NCBI GenBank assembly: GCA_010206225.2
Contig: VIQU02000015.1
Span: 1 to 64,000, forward strand
DNA from: Lachnospiraceae bacterium MD308
GTDB lineage: Bacteria; Bacillota; Clostridia; Lachnospirales; Lachnospiraceae
Direction of reading: 5' to 3'
Length of the DNA stretch: 64,000 nt
Shown here: piece after piece, positions 17,833 through 34,681 of the stretch
Numbering within the stretch: the stretch's first letter is position 1
Layout of the letters: the number at the start of each line of letters is the position of its first letter
Notes under the pieces: generated by a model
Told to the model about the DNA's origin: nothing
Databases searched by the model: none
Seen by the model: the letters and a program-made list of their open reading frames with translations, nothing else
Translations under genes and position numbers: made by a program

Positions 17833-19866
17833 ATGAAGTGTGAGATGACAGAAAAACAAAAAGACTCCGTTTTTGAAAAAGGGAAAAGGCGGAGTCTGAG
17901 CGGACGAATATTGAAAAACACAATCTTTAATATCCTGATACTGGTAGTTATCTGCTGTGTGATCATGGCGCTGTCTATGCAGTCGTTAGCCAACAGTATC
18001 CTGTTGGACAGCTTGCAGCCTATGGTGCGCCAATCCGCTAAATCCGTTGAGGCTAATATCCATATCCTGGCGGACCGGATGATGACGATTGCCGATGATT
18101 ACCGAATGACAGGAGGAGCGGGAGCTTTAGGTGCAGACACTGCCAAGGCAGTCAGAAAAAGCCGAAGCGATGTTTTGACTGAAGCCGCCGAGATTTATGA
18201 GCTGTACACGATTGCGCTTTATGACCTTGACGGGAATCTTATACAGGGGATTGACGGCGCGCCAAAGGCTCTTGATGACAGTTTTTTGGGGCTTCTTAAG
18301 GAAACAGATAACCTGACTACCGATTCTGCTACGATCTTTCAGGACAGCCTTGGCATTACTATGGGTATGCCGGTGAAGGAAGAAGGAAAGACTTACATGT
18401 ATGTCGTAGGAGTTTACAAATATGATGCCATTGATGATATTATCAGCAGTATCAATCTGGGCAAGAATGGTATGGCTTATATAGCGAACCGGGAAGGGAT
18501 TATCGTTGGTCATCCGGACCAGTCTGCGGTTCTTGAACAGAAGACGCTGACTCAGGTCAGTGACGGCAACGAGGATGCCATAAGCCGGGTGACTACCGGA
18601 GAAACAGGATCCATAGAATTTCCTATCGACGGGAAAAAGATGCTGGTAGCATTTTCACCGATCCGCGGCACGCAGTGGTCGCTTGTCATCCAGGTTCCAA
18701 AAGCGGATTATAATCACCTGATCAACAAGGCGATGCTAGTAGCTGTATTGTGCACTTTTGCGGTGCTTGTGATTTCTATTCTGCTGGTTCTTAAGCTGGC
18801 ACGTTCAATCTCGCGTCCGGTAAAGAGTGTTACGGACCGGATGGTTTCCTTCTCTGACGGAGATCTGCATACAGAAGCAGTGGCCGTACAATCTGGGGAT
18901 GAACTTGGCGTGATGGCGCGGACTCTTAACGATACGGTGGAAAGTGTCAACCAGTACATATCGGATATCCAGCAGGTGCTTAGGCGGATTGCGGACGGCA
19001 ATCTGGGCGTAGAGCCGCAGATGGACTATAAAGGAGACTTTACCCTGATCCGGGACAGCCTGACTTCTATCATCCAGTCAATGAATGATACGATAGCGGG
19101 ATTCCGTTCGGCCGCTGTCAGGCTCGCTGAGATGGCGGAGGAACTTAGCGGTCAGTCAGGCCAGCTCCATCAGGCCTCCCTTGAGCAGAATGAATCTGCG
19201 GAGGCACTGGTAGGTGAGGTGTCTACGGTGAAAGAACGGCTTTTAGACGTTACTAAAAGCAGCAGCCAGACCCGCAGCAAAACAGAGGAGATCACCCAGT
19301 GTATCGAAAAGGCCAATACGCAGATGTCTGCCCTGTCCGGCACTATGAAGGATATCAGCGCCAATGCCCATAAGATCACGAAGATTGCCAAGGCTATTGA
19401 GGATATTTCCTTCCAGACAAATATATTAGCGCTCAATGCATCTGTGGAGGCGGCGCGGGCAGGAAGCGCCGGCAGCGGATTTGCCGTAGTAGCCAATGAG
19501 GTCCAGAATCTGGCGTTTAAGAGCGCTGAAGCGGCTAAAAGTGCCACACAGATGATCGGAGATACTATTGCCATCATCCGCGCCGGTGTAAGTCTGAATG
19601 AAGAGACCGCAAGCTCTTTAGAGGCTATATCCGATGTTTCCGAACAAATCAGCAGCATAACAGACCAGCTTGTGACTGCGGTGGAGGGTCAGGAAAGTGC
19701 TTTGATCTCCATGGAAGAGCGGATCGGAGGAATCACCGCGATTGCTGACCGGAATCTGCAGAATGCAGAAGGAACAGAGGAATCCAGCAGATTGCTGGCA
19801 GACGAGGCGGAAAAGCTTCAGGCACAGGTGAAAAATTTTGTTTTGAAGGGAGAGAGTGACAGATGA
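17833..19866 (+). CDS. Methyl-accepting chemotaxis protein (Cache-like sensor, HAMP)
   Basis: Periplasmic region between TMs, HAMP, hairpin tip [44 protein letters not shown]. Confidence 0.94.
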
Positions 19867-20309
19867 AATGGATAATCCGTAAATTGCTGCCGTTATTTTT
19901 GGCTGTTTGTCTTGTCGGGTGCGGCAAGACAGAAGGATTGCAGGACGGCTACTATACTGCCCAGGCTTCAGATTTTCATTTTGGATGGAAAGAATATGTC
20001 ACGATCATCGTGAAAGGAGGACGCATTGTTTCTGTAGAATATAACGCGGAGAATGCCAGCGGTTTTATCAAGAGTTGGGATAATGCCTATATGCAGACTA
20101 TGCTGCACTCTAACGGAACATACCCGAATGAATATACCCGCTACTACGCCGGACAGCTCTTAGATGGGCAGGGTGAGGAGGAGATCGATGCGTTAAGCGG
20201 GGCGACTTCGTCTTACGGTTCTTTTCAGAAACTTGAAGCGGCCGTGCTTGAGCAGGCGAGAAAGGGAGATTCAAGTATCGCGATCGTAGACAACAGTGAA
20301 GAGGAGTAG
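19863..20309 (+). CDS. FMN-binding domain lipoprotein
   Basis: Lipobox [12 protein letters not shown]_bind pattern DGYYTA...[15 protein letters not shown]...[13 protein letters not shown]. Confidence 0.85.
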
Positions 20310-23462: not shown

Positions 23463-24410
23463 ATGAGCAGCAAAATTACAATCATTGGAGCAGGAAGCGT
23501 AGGAGCTACAATTGCCTACACATTGTCCGGACAGGATATCGCATCAGAGCTTGTGCTCATCGATATCAACAAGGCAAAGGTAGAAGGAGAGGTAATGGAC
23601 ATCGAGCAGGGTACCTGCTTTAGAGATCCGATTTCTATCAAGGCAGGAGAATATGAAGACGCAAAAGACTCTGACATCGTAATTATTACATCCGGTATCG
23701 CACGTAAGCCGGGACAGACAAGAATTGAGCTTACGCAGACGAATGTAAATATCTTAAAGGAAATCACCCCAGAGATTGTAAAGGCAGCTCCGAATGCCCT
23801 TTACATCATCGTAAGCAATCCAGTAGACATAATGACATACGTATTTACAAAGATTTCAGGACTTCCAGAGAATCAGATCATCGGTTCCGGTACGATTCTT
23901 GATTCTGCGCGCCTTCGCTGCGGACTTTCTGATCACTTCAAAGTTGCGCAGAGAAATATTCATGCGTATGTATACGGCGAGCACGGGGATACATCATTTA
24001 TCCCATGGTCGGCGGCGCGTATCGCGGGCGTTAATGTAGACGATTACTATGAGATGGCAGAGCACTTTGGAAAGCATTTTGAAAAGCTTGACAAGGAAGA
24101 GATGCTTACTTATGTTCAGAAGTCAGGCGGACAGATCATTTCCAATAAGGGCGCAACCTTCTATGCGGTAACAAGAGGCGTGTGCAAATTATGTGGCTTC
24201 CTCTTATCAGCATCTGAGTCAGTTACGACTGTATCTTCTATGATGCACGGCGAGTACGGCATTGAGGACGTCTGCTTAAGTACCCTGACTTTAGTAGGTC
24301 CGAATGGAATTCAGGGCAAGCTTTCCATGAAGCTTACAGATGAAGAAGTCGCCCTTCTTAAGAAGAGCGCGGACGCTCTGAAAGATGTGATTGCTCAGAT
24401 CGAACTGTAA
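23463..24410 (+). CDS. Malate dehydrogenase of the LDH/MDH family (LDH-like fold, Arg at the specificity position)
   Basis: GAGSVGATIAY Rossmann; GEHGDTSF catalytic His; specificity loop TSGIARKPGQTRIEL. Confidence 0.85.
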   Translation: MSSKITIIGAGSVGATIAYTLSGQDIASELVLIDINKAKVEGEVMDIEQGTCFRDPISIKAGEYEDAKDSDIVIITSGIARKPGQTRIELTQTNVNILKEITPEIVKAAPNALYIIVSNPVDIMTYVFTKISGLPENQIIGSGTILDSARLRCGLSDHFKVAQRNIHAYVYGEHGDTSFIPWSAARIAGVNVDDYYEMAEHFGKHFEKLDKEEMLTYVQKSGGQIISNKGATFYAVTRGVCKLCGFLLSASESVTTVSSMMHGEYGIEDVCLSTLTLVGPNGIQGKLSMKLTDEEVALLKKSADALKDVIAQIEL

Positions 24411-24455: not shown

Positions 24456-25247
24456 ATGAAGTACAGCTATTATCCGGGATGCACTTTGCGGACGAAGGCG
24501 AAAGATCTGGACGACTATGCCAGAGCCAGTGCGAGAGTCTTAGGGTTCGAACTGGAAGAAGTCGAAGACTGGCAGTGCTGCGGCGGCGTATACCCACTCG
24601 GTACGGATGAGATCGCGACAAAGCTTTCGTCTGTACGCGCGCTGAATGCGGCGAAGAAAAAGAATCAGGAGCTGGTAACGATCTGCTCTGCCTGTCATCA
24701 TGTTATCAAGCGCGTGAACGATGATATGAAAAACGTAGAAGATATCTGCACCAGAGCGAACAATTATATGGAGCTTGATACGCCTTACAAGGGCGAGACG
24801 AAGGTTCTTCACTATCTGGAAGTGCTCCGCGACAGAGTGGGATTTGACGAACTGAAAAAGAAAGTGGTGAATCCGCTTAAGGGGAAGAAGATCGGCGCAT
24901 ATTACGGATGTCTTCTTCTTCGTCCGGGAAAACTCCTTGAGTTTGATAATCCGGAGAATCCAAAGATCATGGAAGACTTTATTCGCGCCATCGGCGCAGA
25001 GCCGGTGATTTATCCGTACCGCAACGAGTGCTGCGGCGGGTACATATCTTTGAAGGAAAAGGACATGGCAAAATCAATGTGCGACAAGATCACAGAGAGC
25101 GCAGAAGGCTTTGGGGCAGACATGCTCATCACGGCCTGTCCTCTGTGTATGTATAATCTGAACAAGAGCAGTGCAAGGGAAATTCCTGTATATTACTTTA
25201 CAGAGCTTCTTGCCGAGGCTTTGGGAGTTAAGGAGGTGCAGGCATAA
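24456..25247 (+). CDS. hdrB: Heterodisulfide reductase subunit B-like protein (two CCG domains)
   Basis: YYPGCTL..WQCCGG..CSACHHV and GCLLLRPG..ECCGGY..CPLCMYNL. Confidence 0.93.
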   Translation: MKYSYYPGCTLRTKAKDLDDYARASARVLGFELEEVEDWQCCGGVYPLGTDEIATKLSSVRALNAAKKKNQELVTICSACHHVIKRVNDDMKNVEDICTRANNYMELDTPYKGETKVLHYLEVLRDRVGFDELKKKVVNPLKGKKIGAYYGCLLLRPGKLLEFDNPENPKIMEDFIRAIGAEPVIYPYRNECCGGYISLKEKDMAKSMCDKITESAEGFGADMLITACPLCMYNLNKSSAREIPVYYFTELLAEALGVKEVQA

Positions 25248-25636
25248 TGAGTTCTAAGAAGAAACAGGCGGAACTGATCGAGGAGATCAGCGGCGTGAAC
25301 CCGTTAAAATGTATGAAGTGCGGAAAATGCTCTGCATCCTGCCCATCCTATAATGAGATGGACATCAAGCCTCACCAGTTTGTATCCTATGTGATTAATG
25401 AAGATGTGGAGAGTCTTGTAAACTCAGAGTCTCTCTGGAAATGTCTTTCCTGCTTCGCATGCGTGGAGAGGTGTCCGAGAGACGTGAAACCAGGAAAACT
25501 TATTGACGCTGCAAGGCAGATGGTAGTGCGCCAAAGGAATAATACCTATCTGTCGCCGGATGAAGTTCCGGAATTACTCGACCCGGAAATCCCGCAGCAG
25601 CTTTTAGTCAGTGCATATAGAAGATACAGGAGGTGA
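25247..25636 (+). CDS. hdrC: Heterodisulfide reductase subunit C-like protein
   Basis: Two 4Fe-4S motifs CMKCGKCSASCPSYNEM and CLSCFACVERCPRDVKP. Confidence 0.92.
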   Translation: MSSKKKQAELIEEISGVNPLKCMKCGKCSASCPSYNEMDIKPHQFVSYVINEDVESLVNSESLWKCLSCFACVERCPRDVKPGKLIDAARQMVVRQRNNTYLSPDEVPELLDPEIPQQLLVSAYRRYRR

Positions 25637-25643
25637 CACAAGC

Positions 25644-27632
25644 GTGCAGAGGATTGGAGTATTTGTCTGCCATTGCGGAAGTAATATCGCGGCGACGGTA
25701 GACGTATCAAAAGTGGCAGAGATGGCGCTGATGGAGCCGGGAGTAGTCCATGCGGAAGATTACCAGTATATGTGTTCTGAAGCAGGACAGGCAAAGATCG
25801 CTGACGCCATTCATGAAAAAAAATTAACAGGTATTGTTGTATGTTCCTGCTCTCCGCGTATGCATGAGGCTACATTCAGGAAAGCGGCAGAGCGTGCGGG
25901 CCTGAATCCATATATGGTAGAGATTGCCAATATCCGTGAGCATTGTTCATGGATTCATAAGGATATGGAAGAGGCGACAAAGAAGGCCGTCATCCTGATG
26001 AGAGCGGCAGTTGCCAAAGTAAACTTAAACACACCCCTTCAGCCCGGTGAGAGCCGCGTAACAAAAAGGGCGCTCATTATCGGAGGCGGTATTGCAGGTA
26101 TTCAGACAGCCCTTGATATTGCAGATGCAGGCTATGAGGTGGATATCGTGGAGAAGACGCCGAGTATCGGCGGAAGGATGTCACAGCTTGACAAGACTTT
26201 CCCGACATTGGACTGTTCTGCGTGTATCCTGACACCAAAGATGGTGGAAGCCTCCGCTCATGAGAAGATCAAGATCTATACATACAGTGAAGTAGAGAAT
26301 GTAAGCGGATTTGTAGGCGACTTTACGGTGGATATCCGTAAAAAGGCAAGAAGCGTTGACATGGACAAATGTACAGGCTGCGGCGTCTGTCAGGAGAAAT
26401 GTCCTTCTAAAAAAGCGCCGAGTGAGTTTAACAGAGGCTTAAATAACCGGAGCGCCATCTACACTCCGTTTGCGCAGGCGATCCCGAATGTTCCTGTCAT
26501 TGACAGAGAGGCATGTATCAAGTTTAAGACGGGAAAATGCGGAATCTGCTCTAAGGTATGTCAGGCGGGAGCCATTGACTACGAGCAGAAAGACGAGATC
26601 ATTACAGAAAAGTACGGCGCTATCGTCGTTGCAACCGGTTTTGATACCATTAACCTTGATAAGTATGATGAATACGCATACAGCCAGAGTAAGGATGTTA
26701 TCACGTCTTTAGAGCTTGAGCGTGTGATGAATGCGGCAGGACCGACTCACGGACATTTAGAGCGCCTTTCCGACGGCAAGGCTCCGAAGGAGATGGTATT
26801 TATCCAGTGCGTAGGAAGCCGCTGCTCCGACGACAGAGGGAAGCCTTACTGTTCCAAGATCTGCTGTATGTACACAGCAAAGCATGCAATGCTCATCCGC
26901 GATAAATATCCGGATGTGAACGTAACCGTATTTTACATTGATGTGCGTACGCCGGGTAAGAACTTTGACGAGTTCTACAGAAGAGCCGTAGAGCAGTACG
27001 GAGTCAATTATATTAAAGGTCAGGTTGGAAAAGTCATCCCGCAGCCAAACGGCAAGCTTTTAGTACAGGGCTCAGACCTTCTCGACAACCGTCAGATTTT
27101 AAAAGAGGCGGATATGGTTGTCCTTGCTACGGCGATCGAGCCGAATCCGGATGTAAGAAAGATCGCGACGATGCTGACTGCAAGTATCGATACGAACAAC
27201 TTCTTAACTGAGGCTCACGCAAAGCTTCGTCCGGTAGAGTCGCCGACGGCAGGTATCTTCCTTTCCGGCGTATGTCAGGGACCAAAGGATATTCCTGAGA
27301 CTGTTGCGCAGGCAGGCGCGGCGGCAGTTAAGGCAATCGGACTCCTTGCAAAGGATAAGCTTATGACGAATCCGTGTACCGCTCATTCCGATGAGCTTCT
27401 CTGTAATGGATGTTCAACCTGTGAGAATGTATGTCCTTACGGGGCGATTACATATGAGGATAAAGAGGTTAATGATCACGGTATTCGTGAGGTTCGCCGT
27501 CTTGCAGTTGTTAACAGTGCGCTTTGTCAGGGCTGCGGCGCCTGTACAGTAGCGTGTCCGTCAGGAGCTATGGACCTTCAAGGGTTCTCGAACAGACAGA
27601 TCATAGCGGAGGTGGATGCAATATGTCGATAG
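25644..27632 (+). CDS. hdrA: Heterodisulfide reductase subunit A-like FAD/Fe-S protein
   Basis: GTG start after aggaggtg; ALIIGGGIAGIQTALDIADAGY; CVGSRCSDDRGKPYCSKICC; ferredoxin motifs CTGCGVCQEKCP, CNGCSTCENVCPYG, CQGCGACTVACPSG. Confidence 0.95.
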   Translation: MQRIGVFVCHCGSNIAATVDVSKVAEMALMEPGVVHAEDYQYMCSEAGQAKIADAIHEKKLTGIVVCSCSPRMHEATFRKAAERAGLNPYMVEIANIREHCSWIHKDMEEATKKAVILMRAAVAKVNLNTPLQPGESRVTKRALIIGGGIAGIQTALDIADAGYEVDIVEKTPSIGGRMSQLDKTFPTLDCSACILTPKMVEASAHEKIKIYTYSEVENVSGFVGDFTVDIRKKARSVDMDKCTGCGVCQEKCPSKKAPSEFNRGLNNRSAIYTPFAQAIPNVPVIDREACIKFKTGKCGICSKVCQAGAIDYEQKDEIITEKYGAIVVATGFDTINLDKYDEYAYSQSKDVITSLELERVMNAAGPTHGHLERLSDGKAPKEMVFIQCVGSRCSDDRGKPYCSKICCMYTAKHAMLIRDKYPDVNVTVFYIDVRTPGKNFDEFYRRAVEQYGVNYIKGQVGKVIPQPNGKLLVQGSDLLDNRQILKEADMVVLATAIEPNPDVRKIATMLTASIDTNNFLTEAHAKLRPVESPTAGIFLSGVCQGPKDIPETVAQAGAAAVKAIGLLAKDKLMTNPCTAHSDELLCNGCSTCENVCPYGAITYEDKEVNDHGIREVRRLAVVNSALCQGCGACTVACPSGAMDLQGFSNRQIIAEVDAICR

Positions 27633-28063
27633 AAAAGAAAGAATTCAGACCGAAAATTGTGGCGTTCTGCTGTAACTGGTGCAGTTATGCAGGAGCTGAC
27701 CTTGCAGGCAGCAGCCGTCTTGGTTATCCGGCAGATGTAAAGATCATTCGTGTTCCCTGTTCCTGCCGGGTAAACCCGATGTTTATCTTAAGGGCATTTG
27801 AAAAGGGCGCAGACGGAGTGATCATGTGCGGCTGCCATCCGGGAGACTGCCATTACAGCACAGGTAACTTCTACGCAAGAAGACGTATGACGCTTCTGTT
27901 CTCCATGTTAGATTATATCGGCGTGGAAAACGGACGTACACGGGTAGAGTGGGTATCTGCCGCAGAGGGCGTAAAGTTCTCTGACACCATGAACAGCTTC
28001 GTGGAGAAGATATACTCACTTGGTGAAAATGTAAGATTGGGGGATTTAAGATGCAGGAATTAA
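27623..28063 (+). CDS. MvhD/FlxD-like hydrogenase-delta type iron-sulfur protein
   Basis: KIVAFCCNWCSYAGADLAGSSRLGYPADVKIIRVPCSCRVNP..GVIMCGCHPGDCHY. Confidence 0.93.
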   Translation: MSIEKKEFRPKIVAFCCNWCSYAGADLAGSSRLGYPADVKIIRVPCSCRVNPMFILRAFEKGADGVIMCGCHPGDCHYSTGNFYARRRMTLLFSMLDYIGVENGRTRVEWVSAAEGVKFSDTMNSFVEKIYSLGENVRLGDLRCRN

Positions 28064-29025
28064 TTAATCGTGCGAAGGAACTGCTGGATGACGGAACAGT
28101 AGCGCGAGTTCTCGGCTGGAGAGCCGGAGACCTGCCTTACAATCCGGAGCCGGCTTACTTTGAGAATGCGGAATCGTTGAAGGATTTTGTCTACAACGGA
28201 TTCTGCGGAGCAAATCTAAGTAAATACATGATTGAGGCGTCAAAGTTAGAAGGAAAGACTTTAGTATGCTTAAAGCCATGTGATACATACAGCTTTAACC
28301 AGCTCATAAAAGAGCACCGGGTAGACCGGGAGAAAGCATACGTCATCGGCGTAGGCTGCAAGGGAAAGCTTGATATTGAAAAGATCAGAGCACAGGGGAT
28401 CAAAGGGATCGAGAGCATCGAAGGCGCTGAGATTACCGATGAGGCCGAGACTCTGAAAATCCAGACCATTTACGGGGAGAAGACCTGCGCTTACTCTGAC
28501 GCTATGCTTGAGAGATGCCATGTGTGCAAGGGAAAAGAGCATAAGATCTATGACGAGCAGATTGGCGAATCTAAGGAGACAAAGGACGGAGAGCGTTTTG
28601 ACGAGGTTTCTAGGATAGAGGCTATGGCGCCGGCGGAGAAATTCGCATTTTTTAAGAAGGAGCTTAGCAAATGTATCCGCTGCAATGCCTGCAGAAATGT
28701 CTGTCCTGCATGCAGCTGCCGCAAATGTGTCTTTGACAGCAACAAGTTTGACAGCTCCCAGAAGGCGAATGTGGATTCCTTCGAGGAGAAGATGTTCCAT
28801 ATTATCCGAGCTTTCCACGTAGCAGGAAGATGTACGGACTGCGGCGAGTGCAGCCGCGTGTGCCCGCAGGGAATCCCGCTTCATTTGTTCAACCGGAAGT
28901 TTATCAAGGATATTGACGAGCTGTACGGCGAGTATCAGGCGGGAGACGACACCGATTCAAAAGCACCGCTCACAAACTATACGTTTGAGGATGCGGAACC
29001 AAGTATAGTAGGAAAGAGGGGATAA
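28051..29025 (+). CDS. FlxC-like 4Fe-4S dicluster protein
   Basis: CIRCNACRNVCPACSCRKC and CTDCGECSRVCPQGIPLHLFNRK; position in Hdr-Flx cluster. Confidence 0.82.
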   Translation: MQELINRAKELLDDGTVARVLGWRAGDLPYNPEPAYFENAESLKDFVYNGFCGANLSKYMIEASKLEGKTLVCLKPCDTYSFNQLIKEHRVDREKAYVIGVGCKGKLDIEKIRAQGIKGIESIEGAEITDEAETLKIQTIYGEKTCAYSDAMLERCHVCKGKEHKIYDEQIGESKETKDGERFDEVSRIEAMAPAEKFAFFKKELSKCIRCNACRNVCPACSCRKCVFDSNKFDSSQKANVDSFEEKMFHIIRAFHVAGRCTDCGECSRVCPQGIPLHLFNRKFIKDIDELYGEYQAGDDTDSKAPLTNYTFEDAEPSIVGKRG

Positions 29026-29028
29026 TGT

Positions 29029-30060
29029 ATGTATAAGATCGCAAAAGAAAATCTTTCCGCATTATTCCGGTTAATCGCGGATAGTCAGGAATTGTACCTC
29101 CCGGTAAAGACAGCCGGACAGGTAAACTTTGCCGCATGGAGCGAGGAGGCAGAAGTCGCTCTTGATACGCTCAAATCCGTAAAATCTCCGAAGGATGCAT
29201 TCTTTCCGCAGAGTGAGGGTCTGTACACGGTAAGACGGGAAGGCAGAAAGATGAAGGTAGAGCCAGAGAGCCTTAAGGAGCAGGATTTTGTAGTGTTCGG
29301 CATGAAGGCCTGCGATGTGAAGGGCTTGGAGGTACTGGATAATGTATTTTTATCTGATCCGGTTGATACTTTCTATGCGGCAAGAAGAGAGCATGGAACT
29401 ATCGTTGCTCTTGCTTGCCATGAGCCGGAGGAATCCTGCTTCTGCAAGGTGTTCGGAGTAGACGCGGCAAATCCGGCGGCAGACGTTGCAGCCTGGATGA
29501 TCGAGGATGAGCTTCACTGGAAAGCTCTGACTGAAAAGGGCGAGGCTCTGACTGAGAAGGTGAAAGAGCTTCTTTCAGACGGAGACGAGGCGGCTGTAGA
29601 GACAGAGAAGCAGTCAATCCATAATATCATAGAAAAACTGCCATATATGAACCTTTCTTTAGACGGATGGAATGGCGGCGCCCTTTCGGAAAAATTTGAC
29701 GACAAGCTCTGGGAAGAGTTATATAAGCCATGTCTGGCCTGCGGTACGTGTACTTTCGTGTGCCCGACCTGCCAGTGCTATGACATCAAAGATTATGATA
29801 CAGGAAACAGCGTATCCCGTTACCGTTGCTGGGATTCCTGTATGTATTCAGACTTTACGATGATGGCCCACGGCAACAACCGTACGAGCCAGATGCAGAG
29901 ATTCCGCCAGAGATTCATGCACAAGCTGGTGTATTATCCGGCAAACAATGACGGCATGTACTCCTGCGTAGGGTGCGGCCGCTGTGTGGAAAAATGTCCG
30001 GCATCCCTTAATATCGTAAAGGTTATCAAAGCATTTCAGAAACAGGGAGGTGAAAAATAA
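29029..30060 (+). CDS. FlxB/AsrA-like 4Fe-4S dicluster protein
   Basis: CLACGTCTFVCPTCQCYDI and CVGCGRCVEKCPASLNIVKVI. Confidence 0.82.
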   Translation: MYKIAKENLSALFRLIADSQELYLPVKTAGQVNFAAWSEEAEVALDTLKSVKSPKDAFFPQSEGLYTVRREGRKMKVEPESLKEQDFVVFGMKACDVKGLEVLDNVFLSDPVDTFYAARREHGTIVALACHEPEESCFCKVFGVDAANPAADVAAWMIEDELHWKALTEKGEALTEKVKELLSDGDEAAVETEKQSIHNIIEKLPYMNLSLDGWNGGALSEKFDDKLWEELYKPCLACGTCTFVCPTCQCYDIKDYDTGNSVSRYRCWDSCMYSDFTMMAHGNNRTSQMQRFRQRFMHKLVYYPANNDGMYSCVGCGRCVEKCPASLNIVKVIKAFQKQGGEK

Positions 30061-30914
30061 TGAGTGAATGTACCTGTCATAAAAATTATACATTAGATAC
30101 TCTGATTCCGCAGGTTGGCGTGATCACCGATATCCGCCAGGAGACGCCGGATGTTAAAACCTTCCGCGTCAATGCGCCGGAAGGAGGAAAGCTTTTTGAG
30201 CATATGCCCGGGCAGTGCGCTATGGTATGCGTGCCGGGCGTCAGCGAAGGTATGTTTTCCATTACTTCTTCGCCTACTAATAAAGAGTATCAGGAATTTA
30301 GTATTAAAAAGTGCGGAGTTCTTACTGACTATCTTCACAGCCTTGAGGTGGGCGATGAGATCACGGTAAGGGGACCATATGGCAATTCCTTCCCGGTAGA
30401 GACAGAGCTTAAGGGAAAGAATCTTTTGTTCATCGCCGGAGGTATCGGTCTTGCGCCTTTGCGTTCCGTAATAAACTACGTGATCGACAACAGAGCAAAC
30501 TATGGAACGGTTGATATTGTCTATGGCTCCCGTTCTGCAGATGATCTGGTTCAGCTTAAGGAGATTCAGGATGTATGGATGAAGACAGAGGGGATCAATG
30601 TCCATCTGACCATTGACAGAGAGCAGGAAGGCTGGGACGGCCACGTAGGATTTGTCCCGAATTATGTAAAGGAGCTTGGCTTTGATACAGATAAGACAGC
30701 GCTTGTATGCGGTCCTCCGATCATGATCAAGTTCGTGCTGGCGGGTCTTAAGGAACTTGGATTCACGACAGAGCAGGTGTATACTACATTAGAGCTTCGT
30801 ATGAAGTGCGGTATCGGAAAATGCGGACGCTGCAATATCGGTTCCAAGTACGTGTGCAAAGATGGACCAGTGTTCCGCTTTGATGAGATCGATGAGCTTC
30901 CGAATGAGTATTAG
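30060..30914 (+). CDS. FlxA/AsrB-like FAD/NAD(P)-binding oxidoreductase with 2Fe-2S C-terminus
   Basis: MFSITSSP, LLFIAGGIGLAPLRSVINYVI, VYGSRS, MKCGIGKCGRCNIGSKYVCKDGPVF. Confidence 0.88.
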   Translation: MSECTCHKNYTLDTLIPQVGVITDIRQETPDVKTFRVNAPEGGKLFEHMPGQCAMVCVPGVSEGMFSITSSPTNKEYQEFSIKKCGVLTDYLHSLEVGDEITVRGPYGNSFPVETELKGKNLLFIAGGIGLAPLRSVINYVIDNRANYGTVDIVYGSRSADDLVQLKEIQDVWMKTEGINVHLTIDREQEGWDGHVGFVPNYVKELGFDTDKTALVCGPPIMIKFVLAGLKELGFTTEQVYTTLELRMKCGIGKCGRCNIGSKYVCKDGPVFRFDEIDELPNEY

Positions 30915-31632: not shown

Positions 31633-33243
31633 ATGTATACACCATATCCAGAGAATATGATGGAATCCATCAAAAAGGTAGAGGCTACAAGGGCAGAGCG
31701 TATGGCTACGGAACCAAGACGTCTGACTGCTGATGAAAAAGAGGCTCTCCTGAAGGAATTCCATCCAGATTATAATCCGGATGCTTTTGCAGAGATCAAG
31801 GTAGGTCCGAATAAGGGGCAGAAGGCGCCCCTTGAACTGGCAGAGATGCTTCACTCAACAAGCCGGATTCTGAATAAGGATATTGATATTACAAAGATTG
31901 ACTATGACGTAGACGTACTGGTAATCGGAGGAGGCGGCGCCGGTTCTTCCTGCGCCATCGAAGCGCACAACGCAGGCGCTAACGTAATGATCGTAACAAA
32001 GCTTCGTATCGGCGATGCCAATACGATGATGGCCGAGGGCGGTATTCAGGCGGCAGACAAGGAAAATGATTCACCGGTACAGCACTACTTAGATTGCTTT
32101 GGCGGCGGACATTTTGCCGCAAGGCCGGAGCTTGTGAAACGTCTTGTTATGGAAGCCCCGGATGCGATCAAGTGGTTAAATGAACTTGGTGTTATGTTTG
32201 ACAAAGATGCAGACGGACGTATGGTAACGACACACGGCGGCGGTACATCGAGAAAGAGAATGCATGCATGTAAGGATTACTCCGGCGCTGAGATCATGCG
32301 TACCGTAAGAGACGAGGTATTAAACCTTGGCATTCCGGTAATAGAGTTTACCTCTGCCGTAGAGCTTTTGAAGGATGATAAAGGGCAGGCGGCAGGAGCT
32401 GTACTGCTGAATATGGAGACAGGAGATTATTCTGTTGCAAGAGCGAAGACTGTTGTTATCGCAACAGGCGGCGCAGGAAGAATGCACTATCAGGGCTTTC
32501 CGACATCGAATCATTATGGGGCAACGGCAGACGGACTTGTACTGGGATACCGGGCAGGAGTGCCGCTTCTTTATCAGGATTCCATCCAGTACCATCCGAC
32601 AGGCGTGGCTCATCCGGTACAGATTCAGGGCGCTCTTGTTACAGAGAAGGTGCGTTCCGTCGGCGCTCAGCTTGTAAACGCTAACGGCGAAGCCTACATT
32701 CATCCTCTGGAGACACGTGATGTCAATGCTTCCGGCGTTATCCGTGAGTGTGAAGAGGGACGCGGCGTGGAAGCGCCAAGCGGACAAAAGGGAGTATGGC
32801 TTGACACGCCTATGATCGAGATTCTCGGCGGAGAGGGAACCATCGAGAAGAGGATCCCAGCCATGTTCCGCATGTACATGAAATATGGAATTGATATGAG
32901 AAAAGTGCCGATTCTGATCTATCCGACGCTTCATTATCAGAACGGCGGTCTTGAGATCGACGGAGAAGGCTTTACGAAGGCAATTCCAAATCTTTTAGCG
33001 GCAGGAGAGGTCGCAGGCGGAATCCACGGAAGAAACCGTCTGATGGGCAATTCCCTTCTTGACGTGATCGTATTCGGACGCAATGCCGGTAAGAAGGCTG
33101 CTGCAAAAGCGAAAGAAGTAGAACTTGGCACGATGAACCTTGACCATGTGGCAGGCTATGAGAAGGAGTTAACGGATGCTTCGATGGCTACAGGAGAAGT
33201 GTCGCCGAAGCTTCTTCCGAAATATGCCCGTCACGAGAGATAG
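31633..33243 (+). CDS. Fumarate reductase/succinate dehydrogenase flavoprotein subunit (soluble type)
   Basis: VLVIGGGGAGSSCAIEA; catalytic motifs QYHPTGV, LVTEKVR, RDVNASG, HYQNGGLEID, GRNRLMGNSLLD. Confidence 0.93.
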   Translation: MYTPYPENMMESIKKVEATRAERMATEPRRLTADEKEALLKEFHPDYNPDAFAEIKVGPNKGQKAPLELAEMLHSTSRILNKDIDITKIDYDVDVLVIGGGGAGSSCAIEAHNAGANVMIVTKLRIGDANTMMAEGGIQAADKENDSPVQHYLDCFGGGHFAARPELVKRLVMEAPDAIKWLNELGVMFDKDADGRMVTTHGGGTSRKRMHACKDYSGAEIMRTVRDEVLNLGIPVIEFTSAVELLKDDKGQAAGAVLLNMETGDYSVARAKTVVIATGGAGRMHYQGFPTSNHYGATADGLVLGYRAGVPLLYQDSIQYHPTGVAHPVQIQGALVTEKVRSVGAQLVNANGEAYIHPLETRDVNASGVIRECEEGRGVEAPSGQKGVWLDTPMIEILGGEGTIEKRIPAMFRMYMKYGIDMRKVPILIYPTLHYQNGGLEIDGEGFTKAIPNLLAAGEVAGGIHGRNRLMGNSLLDVIVFGRNAGKKAAAKAKEVELGTMNLDHVAGYEKELTDASMATGEVSPKLLPKYARHER

Positions 33244-33274: not shown

Positions 33275-34117
33275 ATGCGTGAGATAGAAGTTAGCAAGCT
33301 TACTGATGTAATTGAAAAACTTTGTATCGCAGCAAATGAGCATCTTCCGGAGGATGTAAAGTGTGCAATCAAGAATTGCCGCGCATGTGAGGATGGAGAG
33401 ATTGCGAAAGGAGTTCTCGATAATATTATCGAGAACTTCGAGATTGCTGACAATGAGTGCGTGCCGATCTGTCAGGATACCGGCATGGCGTGTGTGTTCT
33501 TAGAGATCGGACAGGACGTACATCTTACAGGCGGAGACCTTACGGAAGCCGTCAATGAAGGCGTGCGCCGTGGGTATGACAAGGGTTATCTTCGTAAATC
33601 GGTTGTGAAGGATCCGGTTCGCCGCGGAAATACTGGCGACAACACACCGGCAATGCTCTATACGGAAATCGTTCCAGGAGAGCAGATCAAGGTAACGGTA
33701 GGACCAAAAGGCTTCGGAAGCGAGAATATGAGTCAGATCCGTATGTTTAAGCCATCCCACGGCCTTCAGGGGATCAAAGACTTTATCCTTGAAGTTGTAG
33801 AGACGGCGGGGCCGAACCCGTGTCCGCCTATGGTAGTCGGCGTAGGAATCGGCGGAACCTTTGACAAGGCAGCCCTTCTTGCAAAGAAAGCGCTGATGCG
33901 GCCGGTTGATTCTGAGAACCCGGATCCGTTCTATGCAGATCTTGAAAAAGAAATGCTTTCTAAGATCAATGAGCTTGGAATCGGTCCGCAGGGCTTTGGC
34001 GGAAAGACAACGGCGATCGGCCTTAATATCGAGACATTACCGACTCATATCGCAGGTATGCCATGTGCGGTTAATATCAACTGCCATGTGACACGCCACA
34101 AAACGGAGGTGATTTAG
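33275..34117 (+). CDS. Class I fumarate hydratase alpha subunit
   Basis: [27 protein letters not shown]...[20 protein letters not shown]...[14 protein letters not shown]. Confidence 0.93.
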
Positions 34118-34681
34118 ATGGCAGCAAGAAAGATTACATTACCGCTTACCGAAGAGCTTGCAAAGACACTCCATGCAGGAGACAGCGTGCTCGTGACCGG
34201 AACGATCTATACGTCCCGCGATGCTGGACATAAGCGCATGTGCGAGTCATTGGCAAAGGGAGAAAAGATACCGTTTGACCCGAAGGATGCAACCATCTAT
34301 TACGTCGGTCCTACGCCTGCAAAGCCGGGCAAAGTGATCGGCTCCGCAGGCCCTACGACAAGCGGGCGCATGGATGCTTACGCACCGACCATGATGTCTG
34401 TAGGCGCAAGAGGGATGATCGGAAAAGGCGCGCGTCTTCCGGAGGTTGTTGAAGCCATGAAGAAGTATTCCGGCGTTTACTTCGGAGCCATCGGAGGCGC
34501 TGGCGCGCTTCTTGCAAAATGTATCAAGAAGGCAGAGCTGATTGCTTTTGAGGATCTTGGCGCAGAGGCGCTTAGAAAGCTTTATGTGGAGGATATGCCG
34601 TTAGTTGTCATCATCGACAGTGAGGGAAATAATCTGTATGAGAGCGGACGCGCCGCATATCTGGAGCAGAAGAACAAATAG
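34118..34681 (+). CDS. Class I fumarate hydratase beta subunit
   Basis: VLVTGTIYTSRDAGHKRM..YYVGPTPAKPGKVIGSAGPTTSGRMD..GARGMIGKG. Confidence 0.93.
   Translation: MAARKITLPLTEELAKTLHAGDSVLVTGTIYTSRDAGHKRMCESLAKGEKIPFDPKDATIYYVGPTPAKPGKVIGSAGPTTSGRMDAYAPTMMSVGARGMIGKGARLPEVVEAMKKYSGVYFGAIGGAGALLAKCIKKAELIAFEDLGAEALRKLYVEDMPLVVIIDSEGNNLYESGRAAYLEQKNK

Follow-up and report, generated by a model that had tools for sequence, protein, structure and literature searches.

The methanogen thiol:fumarate reductase TfrAB is a soluble enzyme. The quinol:fumarate reductase of Escherichia coli has FAD linked to His44 of FrdA, a C-terminal PF02910 domain, and membrane anchors, and the 8-methylmenaquinol:fumarate reductase SdhABE is quinol-linked and has a CCG-containing anchor, SdhE. 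Fumarate reductase genes have also been described together with Flx-Hdr modules. The "succinate operon" of Pseudoclostridium thermosuccinogenes, as outlined in PMC7282089, combines a block of seven Flx-Hdr genes with a fumarase, a pair of fumarate reductase genes, and a presumed transporter; its type and an electron-bifurcating function were proposed in a preprint cited there (Koendjbiharie and van Kranenburg 2019), and its RNA rises ~4-fold under CO2 limitation. In tubeworm symbionts and Thioflavicoccus, tfrAB genes are interspersed in flxABCD-hdrABC clusters, and direct electron delivery was suggested (PMC6315080). Blautia luti makes succinate and transcribes frdAB strongly, and its extracts reduce fumarate (PMC12773636).

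We analyzed a 64,000-nucleotide stretch of DNA from Lachnospiraceae bacterium MD308 (contig VIQU02000015.1, positions 1 to 64,000; hereafter the window). It contains hdrABC, flxABCD, frdAB, and fumarase genes together in a nearly gapless operon on one strand, in the order malate dehydrogenase-hdrBCA-flxDCBA-frdBA-fumarase alpha/beta-transporter (Table 1). This operon type is already known as a proposal, and the window system adds another member. Unlike the P. thermosuccinogenes operon, as far as that source describes it, the window operon is headed by a probable malate dehydrogenase gene and has its fumarase in two genes; the likeness is one of gene content. The symbiont and Thioflavicoccus clusters are similar in gene arrangement but belong to reverse TCA cycle clusters of Gammaproteobacteria.

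Table 1. Operon genes and FrdA segments in the window
Feature	Position	Strand	Details
Probable malate dehydrogenase, lactate-dehydrogenase type	23463..24410	+	Arg81 at substrate-specificity position
HdrB-like, two CCG motifs	24456..25247	+	PF02754
HdrC-like 4Fe-4S subunit	25247..25636	+	Fer4_8; HdrC models
HdrA, presumed bifurcating flavoprotein	25611..27632	+	HdrA2 model
FlxD/MvhD-like subunit	27623..28063	+	PF02662; matches HdrA2 641-773
FlxC-like 4Fe-4S protein	28051..29025	+	Fer4 families; operon position
FlxB-like (AsrA/sulfhydrogenase beta type) Fe-S protein	29029..30060	+	PF17179; ShyB, HydB, AsrA models
FlxA-like NAD(P)H:FAD subunit	30060..30914	+	PF00175, PF00970, PF10418; HydG/AsrB models
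FrdB, 224 aa	30944..31618	+	PF13510 (N-terminal 2Fe-2S) and Fer4_7
FrdA flavoprotein	31633..33243	+	536 aa
FrdA N-terminal segment, residues 1-90	31633..31902	+	motif HPDY...GPNKG...SR
FrdA C-terminal end past FAD domain, residues 476-536	33058..33240	+	SPxLLPxY tail instead of PF02910
Fumarate hydratase alpha subunit	33275..34117	+	PF05681; NF004885 over cut-off
Fumarate hydratase beta subunit	34118..34681	+	PF05683; NF005310 over cut-off
AspT/YidE-type transporter, 403 aa	34789..36000	+	PF06826 in two stretches; TIGR01625 over cut-off

The operon is strongly conserved. All seven hdr/flx genes and frdB lie upstream of frdA in every one of the 63 loci that have 8 kb or more of upstream DNA, and these loci also contain fumarase (53), malate dehydrogenase (43), and transporter (40) genes. 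In the deepest relative (L130), the gene order differs while the hdr/flx/frd/fumarase set is unchanged. Malate and lactate dehydrogenases are separated by Arg versus Gln at the substrate-specificity position. NCBIfam calls the first product of the operon an L-LDH, but its GIARKPGQTR motif has Arg where LDH has Gln and this Arg81 is invariant in 46 relatives; despite its L-LDH score, the protein is probably a malate dehydrogenase. HdrA matches residues 1-640 of the HdrA2 model with 807 bits, below the full-length cut-off. The cysteine motifs and length of FrdB are conserved in 109 relatives. Its two CxxCxxCxxxC motifs suggest two 4Fe-4S clusters, versus one 4Fe-4S and one 3Fe-4S cluster in membrane FrdB. 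The AspT/YidE-type transporter is a candidate succinate or dicarboxylate carrier; at other loci, frdA and the fumarase genes are often separated by a more distant transporter of this type. Elsewhere in the window, a small lipoprotein-like open reading frame (19863-20309) has an SGATSS motif and, by eye, resembles FMN-binding proteins flavinylated by ApbE.

We next consider FrdA itself, which the original prediction had described as a fumarate reductase flavoprotein with intact catalytic residues, Asn in place of the FAD-linking His, about 90 residues ahead of the FAD domain, and no C-terminal domain. Each of these features was recovered. The open reading frame and its motifs are present at the positions given; a ribosome-binding site of the GGAGG type lies 8 nt 5' of the ATG, and a Pfam profile search places PF00890 (230 bits) at residues 94-475. 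Alignment to E. coli FrdA maps Glu49 to Glu135, His232 to His321, Thr244 to Thr337, Glu245 to Glu338, Arg248 to Arg341, Arg287 to Arg362, His355 to His434, and Arg390 to Arg469, while His44 falls on Asn130 (codon at 32020-32022). With its PF00890 domain and the catalytic residues of the capping domain, the protein belongs to the FrdA/SdhA/NadB superfamily, and judged by this alignment it is a fumarate-reductase-type flavoprotein with every E. coli FrdA catalytic residue. The best fold match of its AlphaFold2 model is also E. coli FrdA (1kf6, E 2.6e-23). The model comes from a shallow alignment and has a mean pLDDT of 73.6, falling below 50 at residues 129-163 and 195-217 around the active site, so that it is good enough to identify the fold but too weak for judging docking or the FAD pocket.

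FrdA and its relatives form a distinct and very uniform family, marked by a private front segment and an absent tail domain. The 112 distinct relatives are ~58-99% identical and 528-555 aa long, and Asn130 is invariant in all of them. The tree recovers the family as a single clade with full support and a long stem; this tree contains no methanogen TfrA, and several outgroup branches are long. The protein occurs in 54 of 391 Clostridia genomes (36 genera). The named genomes closest to the host are mouse-gut-type Lachnospiraceae isolates (L001, L002). One frdA, from Sporofaciens musculi WCA-9-b2 (L022, 9917-11611), is divided into two reading frames, reflecting a broken gene or a sequencing error. 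Among the sequences compared, other soluble superfamily members have Asn, Asp, or Ser at the His position; loss of the His alone thus appears common in the superfamily and not unusual. What is peculiar is its combination with the N-terminal segment and the constancy of that combination. Asn also takes the place of the His in two TfrA-like proteins with a full-length C-terminus (L139, 5238-6974; L148, 4421-6085, minus strand), both of which have Tyr as the equivalent of His321 (QFYPHAL).

PF02910 has no match in FrdA or anywhere in the 97%-complete host genome, whereas the same model finds matches in 11 of 14 control genomes. The tail that stands in its place, closing with a conserved SPxLLPxY motif, has a mean column identity of 70% among the 112 distinct relatives, versus 89% for the core. 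The relatives end at the same place, which rules out truncation through a frameshift or an assembly error. The host's own L-aspartate oxidase likewise lacks the C-terminal domain.

The original prediction further took these features to point to non-covalent FAD and different docking, as expected for a soluble complex. This reading is partly supported. Non-covalent FAD and a soluble complex are well-supported inferences: an invariant Asn stands where the linking His would be, the host genome has no match to the Sdh5/SdhE flavinylation factor, to an SdhC-type cytochrome b (Sdh_cyt, PF01127), or to a UbiA prenyltransferase (PF01040), and the operon has no membrane anchor gene, with frdA directly after frdB. 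The missing His and solubility do not correspond one-to-one, however, and merely occur together. Non-covalent relatives reduce fumarate but cannot oxidize succinate, and the potential of non-covalent FAD is lower (PMC9557727), properties that would fit a one-way electron sink. Because the Asn is invariant, succinate oxidation by this FrdA is unlikely, and the pathway should run in one direction.

The N-terminal segment has no Pfam match and no PDB sequence match at E ≤ 10, ruling out a known domain at this position; it is a new part without precedent in these libraries. AlphaFold2 predicts helices at residues 7-25, 33-43, and 67-73, with pLDDT values of ~70-93 per 10-residue block. Mean column identity over residues 1-90 is 74% in the 112 distinct relatives, and dN/dS between the window and five relatives is 0.02-0.11. 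This conservation and purifying selection rule out a wrongly assigned start codon. The window contains no second copy of the segment. Used as the sole query against 391 Clostridia genomes, it matches in exactly the 54 that carry this FrdA and on no other protein. This perfect co-occurrence with the Flx-Hdr operon suggests a docking role: through the segment, FrdA could plausibly bind the Hdr module or FrdB, with the segment partly substituting for the missing C-terminal domain.

From the gene content, the conserved residues, and the genome absences, we infer that FrdA is probably the fumarate-reducing subunit of a cytoplasmic Flx-HdrABC-FrdAB complex that would be fed by NADH and bifurcate to ferredoxin, with non-covalent FAD and N-terminal docking. 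HdrA in such modules usually performs flavin-based bifurcation (PMC5861303). NADH is the likely donor, since FlxA has FAD- and NAD-binding domains. After reduction of FlxA, electrons would move via FlxBCD to HdrA, whose FAD would split them. One branch would lead to ferredoxin; the other would run by way of HdrC, HdrB, and FrdB to FrdA, which would reduce fumarate to succinate at its non-covalently bound FAD. The fumarate would be supplied by the operon's malate dehydrogenase, which would give malate, and by its fumarase. The overall reaction would be 2 NADH + fumarate + oxidized ferredoxin → 2 NAD+ + succinate + reduced ferredoxin, and the reduced ferredoxin would feed Rnf, whose RnfC subunit is present in the host genome. 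Published potentials of +33 mV for fumarate/succinate and −320 mV for NADH (PMC5861303) and of −400 to −500 mV for ferredoxin (PMC12773636) give a standard free-energy change of approximately −33 kJ/mol, or an even more negative one, when two NADH reduce one fumarate and one two-electron ferredoxin, which is clearly favorable. No biochemistry on a purified family member was found in the literature searched. A stronger version of this proposal, which we advance tentatively and hold at slightly less than even chances, is that residues 1-90 are an undescribed domain that replaces the complex II C-terminal domain and holds FrdA firmly within one Flx-Hdr-Frd supercomplex. In that case, an electron-bifurcating NADH oxidase would have fumarate as its built-in high-potential acceptor, and fumarate reduction would be a means of energy conservation for gut Clostridia that have no quinones.

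The best NCBIfam matches of the operon's HdrB fall below cut-off: the methylmenaquinol:fumarate reductase anchor SdhE scores 147 bits and the HdrB model 131 bits. The better of these is a fumarate reductase's CCG anchor, in support of the proposed complex. Both CCG motifs are kept in 72 relatives, however, as in a true disulfide reductase, and FrdAB may not be the direct partner of HdrB. Flx-HdrABC could instead reduce a small or protein disulfide, with the dithiol feeding FrdAB through HdrB or FrdB as in the methanogen thiol:fumarate reductase and FrdAB receiving nothing directly from HdrA. Flx-Hdr has been called an NADH dehydrogenase/heterodisulfide reductase, and according to PMC7282089 its electrons go to ferredoxin and thiols. 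Among NCBIfam models, TfrA also fits FrdA best, although below threshold, and it matches all 45 relatives scanned; the window system shares with TfrAB an FrdB-like part and a CCG protein. FrdA nonetheless scores 332 bits where the NF004900 cut-off is 718, and the match covers profile positions 6-426 of 546. Neither subunit has the make-up of TfrA or TfrB: HdrB is a separate gene and the only CCG protein seen beside FrdB, FrdB has no fused HdrB/CCG domain, unlike TfrB, which oxidizes CoM/CoB thiols, and FrdA has the extra N-terminal segment. The operon contains no gene for a dithiol carrier, and DsrC is rejected as the intermediate, having no match in the 97%-complete genome. We consider this disulfide-dependent route unlikely.

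A plain NADH:fumarate reductase, in which Flx-Hdr hands electrons to FrdAB with no coupled reduction of ferredoxin, is comparably improbable. The published energy balance of B. luti assumed an NADH-dependent fumarate reductase without bifurcation (PMC12773636). Against this, a full HdrA and its FlxD/MvhD partner are retained in every complete locus, Rnf is present as a user of ferredoxin, and simple NADH oxidation should need no seven-gene Hdr-Flx module. A quinol-linked membrane enzyme is unlikely in this host, because the genome has no PF02910, Sdh_cyt, or UbiA match, the anchor having been sought as the Sdh_cyt family. The hallmarks of a membrane complex II (Sdh or quinol Frd), namely, the His for FAD linkage, PF02910, an anchor of the Sdh_cyt family, and quinone synthesis as represented by UbiA, are all missing, and we reject this assignment; the resemblance of HdrB to the SdhABE anchor is set against the same lack of UbiA. 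Finally, a truncated L-aspartate-oxidase-like identity for FrdA, suggested by several such models scoring 147-262 bits and by the shortened C-terminus of the host's own enzyme, is rejected as highly improbable, because all of these scores are far below cut-off, a separate NadB elsewhere in the genome exceeds it, the tree sets the FrdA clade apart from NadB, and frdA is everywhere paired with frdB after hdr/flx, with fumarase adjacent in most loci.

The bifurcating Flx-HdrABC-FrdAB complex that we favor bears on a cultured gut bacterium. B. luti MSK.16.34 (L013) carries the operon, with an FrdA 90% identical to that of the window, and the fumarate reductase activity measured in B. luti is likely due to it. 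B. luti has two other flavoproteins, both with a PF02910 match, one of them beside sulfate-assimilation-type genes. The other (L174, 2782-4338, minus strand) is a solitary second FrdA-like flavoprotein with Ser at the His position. It could contribute to the measured activity, which for this reason is not strictly assigned to the operon.

If the complex is bifurcating, succinate formation would yield reduced ferredoxin for Rnf and alter ATP and hydrogen balances; the energy balance of B. luti was published with a simply NADH-dependent fumarate reductase (PMC12773636). The reductase occurs in ~1 in 7 of the sampled Clostridia genomes and also in sequenced gut Blautia strains.
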